A DNA stretch of 48,180 nt from NCBI GenBank assembly GCA_017856055.1, contig JAFMFP010000003.1, forward strand, positions 1 to 48,180. Reading direction: 5' to 3'. The first letter of the stretch is position 1, and every line of letters begins with the position of its first letter. Both the position numbers and the translations under genes were made by a program. Source of the DNA: Fidelibacterota bacterium. Lineage in GTDB: Bacteria; Fidelibacterota; Marinisomatia; Marinisomatales; Marinisomataceae. This document shows positions 25,944 through 31,412 of this stretch, piece after piece. The notes under the pieces are model-generated. The model was not told the DNA's origin. It saw only the letters and a list, made by a program, of their open reading frames with translations, and did no database searches.

Positions 25944-26502
25944 TTTCGAAAAAATATTTATTGAAACTGAGGCATTAATGCGCGGACACTTTATTCTTTC
26001 TTCAGGGAAACATAGCGATACATATTTTCAATGCGCAAAAGTTTTACAATATCCAAAATATCTTAATCTTTTTGCCCAGGAACTTTATAAAAAATTTGAA
26101 AACTTGAATTTTGACAAAGTTATCTCTCCAGCTATTGGTGGTATTGTTTTAGGTACAGAAGTAGGAAGAAGGTTTGATAAAAGAACAATTTTCTGCGAAC
26201 GTGAGTCTGGGAAAATGAGTCTTCGAAGAGGTTTTTCAATTGAAAGGGGAGAAAAAATTTTGATAATTGAAGATGTGCTAAGTACTGGAGGGTCTATTCA
26301 GGAAGTAATAAAGTTGATAAATTCTATAGGAGGTGAGGTCGTTGGAATAGGAGTTATCGTCGATAGATCTTTAATGCCAATCCATCTTCATGAGAACTTT
26401 CAATCGCTTTGCAAACTGAAAGCGCAAATTTTTGAAAAAGAGAATATTCCCAACTCTTTGAGAAACATTGCCCCAATTAAGCCTGGAACTAATAAAAAAT
26501 AA
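25933..26502 (+). CDS. pyrE: orotate phosphoribosyltransferase; track start 25924
   Basis: 'GHFILSSGKHSDTYFQCAKVLQYP', PRPP motif 'ILIIEDVLSTGGSIQEVI'. Confidence 0.95.
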   Translation: MKIDFEKIFIETEALMRGHFILSSGKHSDTYFQCAKVLQYPKYLNLFAQELYKKFENLNFDKVISPAIGGIVLGTEVGRRFDKRTIFCERESGKMSLRRGFSIERGEKILIIEDVLSTGGSIQEVIKLINSIGGEVVGIGVIVDRSLMPIHLHENFQSLCKLKAQIFEKENIPNSLRNIAPIKPGTNKK

Positions 26503-26553
26503 AAAAATGGGAACTCTTTTTTAAAAAATAGTTTAAAATTAAAGCGGTATTTT

Positions 26554-26988
26554 ATGAAATTTTTTAGATATATATTTTTTATCCTTCTATGTATTCCTCT
26601 CTTTGCCAATGAATGGGTTTACGATTTTGAAGAAGCTAAAAAAATTGCATTGGAGGATGATAAACTTATTGTTTTAGTCTTTCAAGGTTCAGACTGGTGC
26701 TCTCCTTGTATTAAACTTGATAGAGAAATATGGAATAATAATGAATTTAAAAAGATTGCAAGTGAAAATTTTGTGATGTTATTAGCTGATTTTCCAAGAA
26801 AAAAATCTAATGCTCTAAGTCAAATCCAGAAAGAAAAAAACTATTTGCTAGCTGAAAAATATAATCCAAATGGATTCTTTCCATTTGTAGTGATATTTAA
26901 TTCTTACGGTGAAGTTATTGGACAAACTGGCTATGAAAAAATATCTCCTCAGGAGTATGCAAATAAGATTTTAAAATTTAAAATATGA
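26554..26988 (+). CDS. secreted thioredoxin-family protein (CSPC)
   Basis: Signal peptide; 'VLVFQGSDWCSPCIKLDREIW'; ATGA overlap with the following apbE-like gene. Confidence 0.9.
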   Translation: MKFFRYIFFILLCIPLFANEWVYDFEEAKKIALEDDKLIVLVFQGSDWCSPCIKLDREIWNNNEFKKIASENFVMLLADFPRKKSNALSQIQKEKNYLLAEKYNPNGFFPFVVIFNSYGEVIGQTGYEKISPQEYANKILKFKI

Positions 26989-28163
26989 TTAAAAAATTAT
27001 TTCTTTTTTTAACGGTAATCAGTTTCAACTTTGCACAAGAGATTGTTAAAGATACTGCTTTACTCATGGGAAGTAGATTTGATTTTACAGTTGTGTCAGA
27101 TTCCAAATCTGAAGGTCAAAAGTTTATTAGCATGGCTATTGATGAGATTAGTCGTATTGAAAAGCTTATTTCTTCATGGGATATTAATTCTCAAACTTCT
27201 CAAATTAATAGAATGGCGGGAATAGAACCCGTTATTGTAGACAAGGAATTATTCTACTTAATTCAAAGAAGCAAAAAGATTTCTGAGCTAACGAATGGAC
27301 TTTATGATATTAGTTATGCATCTCTTGATCAGATTTGGAAATTTGATGGTAGCATTACCACACTCCCTTCAGAAGATGTTTTAAAAAAATCTATATCTAA
27401 AATCAATTATGAAGATATCATACTTGATGATAAAAACTATAGCGTTTTTCTCAAAAATGAAGGTATGAAAATTGGATTTGGTTCTATCGGAAAGGGATAT
27501 GCTGCTGATAAAGCAAAAGAATTGTTAATTCAAAATGGCGTTCAATCTGGGATAATCAATGCCTCAGGCGATATCGCTGCTTGGGGACATCAGCTCAATG
27601 GTGAAGAATGGCTTATTGCAATCAAAAATCCTTTCAATAAAAATAAAATTTTTTCATGGCTTCCTATTGAAAACAAATCAATCGTTACCTCAGGTGATTA
27701 TGAAAAATTTATTATGATAGAAGGTGAGAGATTTTCTCACATTATCAATCCTAAAACTGGGTATCCCGTCAAAGGTTTAACAAGTGTAAGTGTCATAGCT
27801 CCAACAGCAGAGATTGGAGATGCTTTAGCTACAGCAGTTTTTATATTAGGTAAAAACGATGGTCTGAAATTAATTAATTCATTGCCTGAAATAGAATGTT
27901 TAATAGTTGATTCGGATGGAGAATTTTATCCCTCAGATAATTTAGCTTTCAAAAAAGATAGTAATAACTATAAAAATTTGAAAAAATCTTTGTCAAAAAC
28001 ACTAACTAGGGTTAAAGAATATGAAAAAGTCTACATTAATGATCCTGATATGGATTTGAATCCTAGAAAAGTGAATAAATTTGAAACTAATTTTCAGGTT
28101 TATAGAGAATCAGCTTCTGGCGCTAATGGGGGAAAATCAGGAGGTGGGTGTGGTTGCAATTAA
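26985..28163 (+). CDS. apbE: ApbE-family FAD:protein FMN transferase with C-terminal DUF4266-like domain (fusion)
   Basis: ApbE signatures 'IGFGSIGKGYAADKAKELL', 'GIINASGDIAAWG', 'VTSGDYEKFIMIEGERFSHIINPKTGYPVKGL', 'IGDALATAVFILG'; residues 342-392 'RVKEYEKVYINDPDMDLNPRKVNKFETNFQVYRESASGANGGKSGGGCGCN' resemble DUF4266. Confidence 0.93.
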   Translation: MIKKLFLFLTVISFNFAQEIVKDTALLMGSRFDFTVVSDSKSEGQKFISMAIDEISRIEKLISSWDINSQTSQINRMAGIEPVIVDKELFYLIQRSKKISELTNGLYDISYASLDQIWKFDGSITTLPSEDVLKKSISKINYEDIILDDKNYSVFLKNEGMKIGFGSIGKGYAADKAKELLIQNGVQSGIINASGDIAAWGHQLNGEEWLIAIKNPFNKNKIFSWLPIENKSIVTSGDYEKFIMIEGERFSHIINPKTGYPVKGLTSVSVIAPTAEIGDALATAVFILGKNDGLKLINSLPEIECLIVDSDGEFYPSDNLAFKKDSNNYKNLKKSLSKTLTRVKEYEKVYINDPDMDLNPRKVNKFETNFQVYRESASGANGGKSGGGCGCN

Positions 28164-29610
28164 TCGCCTACTAACTTCAAATTTTATAATCATTTTTTTT
28201 CTTGTAGGATTAAATGGTCAAAATAATGATTCAGTTTTTAAGAAGAATGTACTAGATAATCCTGAAGTAAGTTTTTTAACTAGTTATTATAGCCAAGATG
28301 GTGATCATGCTTCAGTAACTGGAGGAATTGGTACAGAAAAACTAACAGATTTTACTCCAACAGTTATTATAACTATGCCACTTAATCCCGATGAAGTTTT
28401 GACATTTGAAGTTGGAATTTCGGCGTATTCTTCAGCATCCTCAAGCAATGGAAATCCTTTTGATATATCTGGTTCATCTGCTGGCTATGATGATGATGAT
28501 GACTATGATGATGATAATGAAAATTATACTGGTGGTGGTCAAAAAATTGGAACTCCCTGGATAGAATCATCTGGTGCGTCTGCTAGCGATATTTGGTCAA
28601 CTATTGTTGTAGATCATTCAAAATATTCTGAAGACAGAAATCAAATAACTAATAAGAATTTTTCAATTGCTAATGAGTACGATTATAACTCAATAGGTTT
28701 TGGCGGGGGAATCACTAAGCTATATAATCAGAAAAATACTTCTTTATCTTTTGCAGGAAAAATTTTTATTGATAAATGGAATCCGGTATATCCTACTGAA
28801 TTAAAAGCCTATTCTGATGAAAAAGGAGATTTAACTAATGGATATTTTTCTGGTGTAGATATTTTAGATTCTACAGGTCAAAAGTCTACGAACTGGGCTC
28901 CCAAAAATAATTTTAATCTTATTGAAAATGAATGGAGAAACTCATATTCAATTTCATTAAGTGGAAGTCAGATTGTCAATGAGAAATTTCAATTTTCACT
29001 TTTTATGGACCTAGTTTATCAAAAAGGTTGGTTAGCTAACCCTCTACAAAGAGTATACTTTTCTGATATTGATAATTATTACATAGGTAATAGTGAAAAT
29101 ATTATTAACTATACTTCCAAATCTAATACAGATGTGTTTCAATTAGCTGATGATATTGAGCGATTACCTTCTTCACGATTTAAATCTCCCTTTGGATTTC
29201 AATCAAGTTATTACATCAATGAAAAACTTGTTTTTAAAAACTATTTTAGAAGATATCAGGACGATTGGGGTATTACCTCCAATACATATAATGTCGATCT
29301 TCCCATTAAATTAAATGAAAGCTTCACTATATACCCTGCCTATCGAAAATATACTCAAACCAAATCTGATTTTTTTGCTCCTTATGAATCGCATTTATCT
29401 ACTAGCCAATTTTACACCTCTGATTATGATTTATCAGAGTTTTCATCTGAACAATTTTCATTTGGAGTAGGTTATACTGATATTTTTACCAATAGAAAAT
29501 TATTTAACTTAGGTTTAAAGAGTGTAAACCTGAATTTCAGTAATTATATAAGAAGTGATGGTTTAGATGCTTCAATCTTTTCTATTTCTTTTGATTTTGA
29601 GGTGAACTAA
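28144..29610 (+). CDS. DUF3570-like outer-membrane-type beta protein; track start 28081, actual start probably GTG at 28144 or 28150
   Basis: Signal peptide (..SNFIIIFFLVGLNG|Q); 'VFKNYFRRYQDDWGITSNTYNVDLPIKLNESFTIYPAYRKYTQTKSDFFAPY...YTSDYDLSEFSSEQFSFGVGY' resembles the DUF3570 C-terminal pattern. Confidence 0.8.
   Translation: MGVVAINRLLTSNFIIIFFLVGLNGQNNDSVFKKNVLDNPEVSFLTSYYSQDGDHASVTGGIGTEKLTDFTPTVIITMPLNPDEVLTFEVGISAYSSASSSNGNPFDISGSSAGYDDDDDYDDDNENYTGGGQKIGTPWIESSGASASDIWSTIVVDHSKYSEDRNQITNKNFSIANEYDYNSIGFGGGITKLYNQKNTSLSFAGKIFIDKWNPVYPTELKAYSDEKGDLTNGYFSGVDILDSTGQKSTNWAPKNNFNLIENEWRNSYSISLSGSQIVNEKFQFSLFMDLVYQKGWLANPLQRVYFSDIDNYYIGNSENIINYTSKSNTDVFQLADDIERLPSSRFKSPFGFQSSYYINEKLVFKNYFRRYQDDWGITSNTYNVDLPIKLNESFTIYPAYRKYTQTKSDFFAPYESHLSTSQFYTSDYDLSEFSSEQFSFGVGYTDIFTNRKLFNLGLKSVNLNFSNYIRSDGLDASIFSISFDFEVN
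28489..28518 (+). repeat. GAT-rich trinucleotide tract encoding DDDDDYDDDN
   Basis: (GAT)4 GAC TAT (GAT)3 AAT read directly. Confidence 0.9.
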
Positions 29611-31412
29611 TGATAAAAAAAATATTTTATTCTCTGTTATTTTTAACTACTGCCTTTTCTCAATTCAGAGAACCTATCAATATTAACTTTTCTTATAATG
29701 ATAATATTACTTTAGGCGAAGTTGTTGAATTAGAAATAAATATCAGTCTTGAGGAAGGTTGGAAAATATATGCTGTATATGGTGTTGTTGGAGGACCCAC
29801 TCCTTCGAGTATTTCCGTAGATAGTCCTTTCATTGACAAAATTGGAAAAGTAATAGAGCCAATTCCTATCAAGGATTTTGATGAAGGTTTTCAAGTAGAG
29901 ACAAAATTTCATAAAGGTACATTTACTATGATTGTGCCAATTCAAATGTCTTCAAATATTTCCATTGGAGATCAGATCAGCTTTTTCCCTGAATTTGAGT
30001 ACCAAGTTTGCAATGAAACGATTTGTTATCCGCCTAATATTTTTTCTGAAGAGGTAATAATAAGCGTTATAAATGGAAATCCTAACCCTGCAAAACTTAT
30101 TTCGAATTTTGATTTTGATTCAGATTCTATTTTAAATATTGTGGATAATAATATTTTGTCTTTTCTAATTCTTGCGTTGAGTATGGGATTTTTGGCGTTA
30201 TTAACTCCATGCGTTTTTCCGATGGTTCCAATTACTATTTCCTATTTTACTCATAGGGCAGAGCATACCAATCAATCTGCAATAAAAGATGCTACGGTCT
30301 ATATGTTCGGAATTATAGGAACATTTACAGTTCTTGGAATGTTACTCGCAATTATTTTAGGTGCTTCTGGAGCAAATCAAATTGCAGCTAATCCCTATGT
30401 AAATATTTTTATAGCAGCTTTGTTTATTTATTTTTCTTTTTCTTTATTCGGATTTTATGAAATCGAGATACCTGAGAGCTTAAGAAGATTCTCATTACAG
30501 AAAGAAAGCTCTAAAGGCTATTTAGGAATCTTATTTATGGCATTAACATTTACCTTAACTTCTTTTACTTGTACCGTGCAATTTATGGGGCTGATTCTTG
30601 TCGCTGCTTCTCAAGGAGAATGGTTTTGGCCCATTATTGGAATGTTAGTTTTTAGTACTGCTTTTGCATCTCCTTTTTTCTTTTTAGCATTATTTCCAAA
30701 ATATCTAACTCAATTGCCCCAATCTGGAAGTTGGCTCAATAATGTGAAGGTTGTCATGGGTTTTCTAGAATTAGCTGCAGCATTTAAATTTATAAGCAAT
30801 TCTGACTTAGTATGGAATTGGAATATTTTTTCATATGACGTAGTTCTCTTTCTTTGGTCTGTACTTATGTTATTGACTGCAGTTTATTTATTCGGACTAA
30901 TAAGATTTAGACACGATTCCATTCAACCTCTAACTAGTAAAAAAGCTTTGATTGCATCAGTATTTTTAATTTTTTCACTGTATTTGTTCTCGGGTAATTT
31001 GGGATACTCCATTAATGGAACAATTCAATCATATTTACCTCCGAAAAAAGCAAGTTCGAATTTATTATGGGTAAATACCCTTGATGAAGGATTTCAAAAA
31101 GCTCAAGAAGAAAACAAAAATATTTTTATTGATTTTACAGGGGTAACCTGCACCAATTGTCGATGGATGGAAACCAATATTTTTACGATTAATTCAATTG
31201 AAGAAAAATTACAAAAATACGTTTTAGTCAGTTTATATACAGATTCAGGAAAAGATTTTAATCAAAAGAGACAATACCAAATAGAGCGATTTAAAACTGC
31301 AGCCCTTCCTTTTTATGTAATCCTTGATCCTAATGATAATATTATTGATACTTTCCCTGGATTGACTAGAGATAAAAAAGAATTTGAGTCTTTTTTAGAT
31401 AAAGGATTATAA
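29610..31412 (+). CDS. dsbD: thiol:disulfide interchange protein DsbD
   Basis: N-terminal domain Cys pair 'VCNETICYPP'; TM Cys 'LLTPCVFPMVPITISYF' and 'TSFTCTVQFMGLILVAA'; C-terminal thioredoxin domain 'FTGVTCTNCRWME'. Confidence 0.95.
   Translation: MIKKIFYSLLFLTTAFSQFREPININFSYNDNITLGEVVELEINISLEEGWKIYAVYGVVGGPTPSSISVDSPFIDKIGKVIEPIPIKDFDEGFQVETKFHKGTFTMIVPIQMSSNISIGDQISFFPEFEYQVCNETICYPPNIFSEEVIISVINGNPNPAKLISNFDFDSDSILNIVDNNILSFLILALSMGFLALLTPCVFPMVPITISYFTHRAEHTNQSAIKDATVYMFGIIGTFTVLGMLLAIILGASGANQIAANPYVNIFIAALFIYFSFSLFGFYEIEIPESLRRFSLQKESSKGYLGILFMALTFTLTSFTCTVQFMGLILVAASQGEWFWPIIGMLVFSTAFASPFFFLALFPKYLTQLPQSGSWLNNVKVVMGFLELAAAFKFISNSDLVWNWNIFSYDVVLFLWSVLMLLTAVYLFGLIRFRHDSIQPLTSKKALIASVFLIFSLYLFSGNLGYSINGTIQSYLPPKKASSNLLWVNTLDEGFQKAQEENKNIFIDFTGVTCTNCRWMETNIFTINSIEEKLQKYVLVSLYTDSGKDFNQKRQYQIERFKTAALPFYVILDPNDNIIDTFPGLTRDKKEFESFLDKGL

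Follow-up and report, generated by a model that had tools for sequence, protein, structure and literature searches.

Gene content of the locus

The DNA analysed here, hereafter the window, is a stretch of 48,180 nucleotides from a Fidelibacterota bacterium (Marinisomatia, Marinisomatales, Marinisomataceae; GenBank assembly GCA_017856055.1, contig JAFMFP010000003.1, positions 1 to 48,180). The host is an uncultured bacterium with a small genome. All five components of the DsbD-type flavinylation system (Meheust et al. 2021, eLife, PMC8238504), namely, ApbE, DUF3570, Thioredoxin_7, DUF4266 and DsbD, are clustered at 26554-31412, and the base composition of this operon matches that of the host. 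The genes and features of the operon are as follows.

26554..26988, + strand: Trx7, periplasmic thioredoxin-like protein with a CSPC motif (PF13899, Thioredoxin_7, E 2.9e-14)
26985..28163, + strand: ApbE::DUF4266 fusion gene, a single ORF with an ATG start and 392 aa (PF02424 and PF14086 in one protein)
26985..27035, + strand: predicted N-terminal signal peptide MIKKLFLFLTVISFNFA, with no lipobox cysteine (inspection of the translation)
27066..27905, + strand: ApbE flavin transferase domain, residues 28-307 (PF02424, profile 1-266 of 266)
27951..28010, + strand: junction or linker, residues 323-342, KKDSNNYKNLKKSLSKTLTR (compared with 30+ loci; low pLDDT; other frames closed)
28011..28160, + strand: DUF4266 domain, residues 343-392, ending GGGCGCN (PF14086, profile 1-50 of 50)
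28139..28144, + strand: putative Shine-Dalgarno-like AGGAGG, 5 nt before GTG 28150 (inspection)
28149..28160, + strand: CGCN C-terminus, Cys389 and Cys391 (translation; also in the aligned copies, which were selected on GCGC)
28150..29610, + strand: DUF3570, flavinylation substrate family (PF12094, E 4.7e-29)
28429..28440, + strand: SSAS, first predicted FMN site of DUF3570 (conserved Y[S/T]SAS in aligned orthologues)
28570..28581, + strand: SGAS, second predicted FMN site of DUF3570 (fits [S/T]GA[S/T], the motif in PMC8238504)
29610..31412, + strand: DsbD-like transmembrane thiol-electron carrier (PF02683, E 1.4e-25; DsbD_N; Thioredoxin_7)

The CxxC motif of Trx7 is kept in orthologues, and the last 4 nt of its gene are shared with the start of apbE. 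Judging from the sequence, DUF3570 probably starts at GTG 28150, which would overlap the fusion gene by 14 nt. At 28139-28152, the codons of the Gly-rich tail (GGGCGCN) double as the ribosome-binding-like AGGAGG of the overlapping DUF3570. Both predicted FMN sites of DUF3570 are intact in the window, the first (SSAS) being a variant of the conserved Y[S/T]SAS. A second, separate ApbE lies approximately 3 kb from an FMN_bind protein, both on another contig of the genome; the fused ApbE is therefore presumably dedicated to DUF3570.

Domains of the fusion protein

The translated protein of 392 aa terminates in SGANGGKSGGGCGCN. In the Pfam scan, its ApbE domain matched the full PF02424 profile with 271 bits (E 1.4e-80), above the cut-off, and its DUF4266 domain matched PF14086 with 66.5 bits (E 4.1e-18; gathering cut-off 27), while the tail scanned by itself gave an E of 6e-20. 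Because the PF14086 score is far above the cut-off, the resemblance of the tail to DUF4266 is not due to chance. Translation and profile searches thus bear out the preliminary description, in which this frame was read as ApbE joined in one ORF to a CGCN tail and the tail was called DUF4266-like. The C-terminal CXC of DUF4266 (GGGCGCN) corresponds to residues 386-392 of the fusion, and over 50 aa the tail shares 88% identity with the stand-alone DUF4266 of Lacinutrix and Oceanihabitans.

In alignment with relatives, the equivalents of the active-site Ser, His and Asp were located in TSGDYEK, SHIINPKTG and GDALATA of the fused ApbE; their register against the Vibrio cholerae enzyme, whose catalytic residues are named in PMC12052999, was assigned by inspection. 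Deviations from the orthologues occur at 6 of 87 near-invariant columns. The AlphaFold2 model is confident for ApbE (block-mean pLDDT of 75-98 over residues 21-320) and has low pLDDT at the linker; the tail, for which the alignment held five sequences only, is modelled as disordered and shows no docking.

Junction and loss of the lipoprotein signal

The linker occupies the position where relatives have the apbE stop codon, followed by the DUF4266 start, a hydrophobic core and the lipobox cysteine. In these relatives, typically 55-80 nt separate the apbE stop from the EY of the DUF4266 core, and this stretch encodes the signal peptide and lipobox. The corresponding stretch of the window reads KKDSNNYKNLKKSLSKTLTR-VKEYEK: the hydrophobic core and cysteine are gone, the apbE stop codon is absent, and ApbE and DUF4266 share one frame. 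The KKS within the linker is perhaps a remnant of the DUF4266 signal start. The DUF4266 of the window therefore departs from the separate-lipoprotein trait, which is typical and not defining of the family, in being fused and in having neither its own start nor a lipobox cysteine.

No signal peptide was found in the other two frames of the junction, both of which contain several stops, so one indel cannot yield two normal genes. A sequencing frameshift was ruled out because no frame at the junction holds a signal peptide. The loss of the hydrophobic core next to an intact tail is expected once that core would have become an internal membrane segment, and it matches the pattern that selection for solubility of the fused protein would produce.

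Distribution of the fusion and of the operon

The search for fusions covered Bacteroidota and the phylum of the window; DUF4266 may also occur in other phyla, where further fusions are possible. Three Bacteroidota samples around Lacinutrix were used, which partly overlap and total roughly 1,000 genomes. Among the matches listed, DUF4266 was found in 113 of 396 genomes at the phylum level, 79 of 398 at the order level and 155 of 400 at the family level, and no DUF4266 frame in these listed matches was longer than 210 aa between stops, which is too short to hold ApbE plus DUF4266. The order Trx7-ApbE-DUF4266-DUF3570 is kept in the 34 Bacteroidota loci that have all four genes, in each of which DUF4266 is a gene of its own, and also in G180, the only other carrier genome in the phylum of the window (DUF4266 or DUF3570 in 2 of 245 genomes). 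The fusion was also considered as a common Bacteroidota architecture, as tblastn matches spanned residues 1-386, but ORF analysis resolved them into two genes every time.

Of the 65 further distinct DUF4266 copies collected, 64 have a cysteine a little upstream of the core, in almost every case in a lipobox-like setting; the remaining copy is cut off by the end of its contig. An E-x-x-[A/S]-G-[A/G]-[N/S/A] motif is conserved in the DUF4266 copies (L002-L077), resembling an ApbE target with a last residue that is mostly a non-acceptor. In Flavobacterium frigoris, the DUF4266-DUF3570 pair is tandemly duplicated (L035, 6971-7189 and 8752-8985). No relatives were found in IMG/VR. The plasmid search gave many ApbE matches, the best Bacteroidota plasmids reaching 36-46% and one Hymenobacter record matching in two pieces.

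The fusion in the window is real and rare; it joins DUF4266 to ApbE and drops the lipid anchor.

Origin of the operon

Comparison with the sister species (G009, approximately 93-94% DNA identity) delimited one further feature.

26300..30110, no strand: divergent tract with the operon, with edges inside pyrE (~26300) and dsbD (~30110) relative to the sister species (L107)

Outside the tract, the window and the sister species are mostly 94-100% identical; inside it, identity falls to 62-80% where the sequences can be aligned. The breaks are also apparent in the proteins: PyrE is 98.4% identical between the window and G009 in its first part and 56.7% in the rest, and DsbD is 65.3% identical in its first part and 97.9% in the rest. 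The sister species has no operon at this site, and its pyrE directly abuts dsbD. The gene order hflX-dctA-SSS-GNAT-pyrF-pyrE-slot-dsbD-degQ-ileS-dksA is genus-wide, and within it the content of the pyrE-dsbD slot varies: a patatin-like phospholipase in those congeners (L108-L119) with a translated slot, nothing in G009 and the cassette in the window.

The sharp edges of the tract would be explained by allele replacement through homologous recombination; a strain chimera in the assembly is less likely. With regard to the direction of recombination, the window and G009 alleles are about equally far from those of other congeners. The operon is considered foreign because carriers make up just 2 of the 245 genomes of the phylum, the sister species lacks it at this site, and the tract edges resemble those of recombination. 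The tree of concatenated operon proteins places the window within a mostly marine Flavobacteriaceae group (98/94 support), apart from G180, though a single clade of the two is compatible with the AU test (p 0.126). The operon branch of the window is long, with 0.87 changes per site in this tree.

A second fusion in G180

In G180, Trx7 is fused in frame to apbE (L120, 8731-10098; 455 aa), and DUF4266 is a separate lipoprotein. This is the same operon in the same class of bacteria, with neighbouring genes fused as in the window; unlike in the window, the other junction is the fused one and DUF4266 is unfused. Since the two carriers have fusions at both of the Trx7-ApbE-DUF4266 junctions, a physical complex of the three proteins can be argued for, and the fusions in the window and G180 support the proposal that such a complex may assemble around DUF3570.

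Proposed role of the tail

We consider it probable, though far from settled, that the locus holds a genuine fusion in a DsbD-type flavinylation operon gained by horizontal transfer and that the CGCN tail acts as a tethered thiol/disulfide arm. The signal peptide of ApbE would export the fusion as a soluble periplasmic enzyme, which would transfer FMN from FAD to DUF3570. Its flexible, CGCN-tipped tail would be attached to ApbE rather than to a membrane lipid and could pass electrons between Trx7/DsbD and the flavinylated DUF3570. Such tethering would fix a 1:1 ratio and keep the tail where DUF3570 is modified. The disordered, undocked tail of the AlphaFold2 model is consistent with a flexible arm. 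In the described system, expression showed that a DUF3570 is flavinylated by its ApbE, and it is only a proposal that electrons pass from DsbD to the flavin by way of thiol proteins (PMC8238504). Among the remaining readings of the tail, namely, thiol relay, metal ligand and flavinylation regulator, the relay is favoured because DsbD and Trx7 are present.

It is unlikely that the fusion is neutral or decaying, produced by stop loss and deletion in a recently recombined cassette, with the tail as a passenger whose DUF4266 function has been lost. The occurrence of the fusion in one genome only, the loss of an otherwise nearly universal lipobox and the patchiness of the operon in the phylum all fit such decay; against it, the DUF4266 core is undegraded, being full length at 66.5 bits with CGCN intact and 88% identity to stand-alone copies. 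An intact core in spite of the long branch of the operon points to selection still acting on the tail.

A genuine fusion whose tail handles copper or iron for the DUF3570 system, rather than relaying thiol electrons, is an improbable reading. It agrees with the CXC terminus, a type of ending that commonly binds metals, and with the VIT1 iron transporter reported in 25 DUF3570 clusters (PMC8238504), but the operon of the window contains no metal gene, and DsbD and Trx7 indicate thiol chemistry.

We regard as a long shot the idea that the DUF4266 segment is a pseudosubstrate, which would dock in the acceptor groove of ApbE and gate or direct DUF3570 flavinylation, while the CGC cysteines would act as a redox sensor. 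If this were true, the fusion would make a regulator of ApbE permanent.

A sequencing or assembly error that joined two normal genes is very improbable. Every relative examined has two genes, the assembly comprises 59 contigs, and the sequence departs from that of the sister species at either edge of the operon tract. However, no single indel or base change restores a signal peptide and lipobox, the hydrophobic core and cysteine being wholly absent, and the fusion point lies approximately 1.7 kb and 2.1 kb from the tract edges. The tract itself could stem from chimeric assembly of different strains; the fusion would be unaffected, as it lies far from both edges. In the preliminary description, separate ORFs in related genomes together with an assembly error here had been named as grounds for rejecting the fusion; the separate ORFs do exist, but no sign of an assembly error was found inside the gene.

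Least credible of all, and hardly to be expected, is that the fused ApbE attaches FMN in cis to its own tail, on the model of the trypanosome fumarate reductase. The ESASGAN of the tail is in register with D-x-x-[S/T]-G-A-[S/T], and Trypanosoma brucei provides a precedent for ApbE fused to its substrate (PMC12052999). Among DUF4266 copies selected on GCGC, however, the window and 32 of 34 flavobacterial-type copies have Asn at the acceptor position, and copies of the other type have Ser or Ala there; single copies also carry Ile or Val in place of the nearby Ser/Thr of GGK[S/T]GGG. As the acceptor position is mostly Asn, the tail does not qualify as a conserved substrate for FMN attachment, and the earlier suggestion that it might be one is not upheld.

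Significance and comparison with known systems

The natural fusion links DUF4266 to ApbE directly and physically. Its lack of a lipobox suggests that the lipid anchoring of DUF4266 is dispensable, and a single soluble polypeptide offers a simple handle on the CGCN tail and on the function of DUF4266.

DUF4266 has been reported in 221 DsbD-type ApbE clusters and 316 further clusters as a small secreted protein whose C-terminal CXC, it was proposed, may redox-cycle (PMC8238504); the words 'fused' and 'fusion' do not appear in the text of that paper. The fusion had been anticipated to join ApbE and DUF4266 as a Rosetta-stone link, and the two domains do stand in one frame; the functional link as such, however, was already known from gene neighbourhoods (PMC8238504); what is new is the rare ApbE::DUF4266 fusion.

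The operon of the window has the same five parts as the DsbD-type system, and its Trx7-ApbE-DUF4266-DUF3570 order is that of Bacteroidota. It differs in that DUF4266 is fused to ApbE without a lipoprotein signal and in that the host belongs to another phylum, where the system is very rare. Compared with the stand-alone DUF4266 lipoproteins (PF14086), the tail has the same full-length core ending in GGGCGCN but lacks its own start, signal peptide and lipobox cysteine. In the fumarate reductase of Trypanosoma brucei, ApbE is fused to its substrate (cited in PMC12052999). The likeness lies in the combination of ApbE with a functional partner in one protein; the trypanosome partner is an FMN acceptor, whereas the tail in the window is without the acceptor Ser/Thr.
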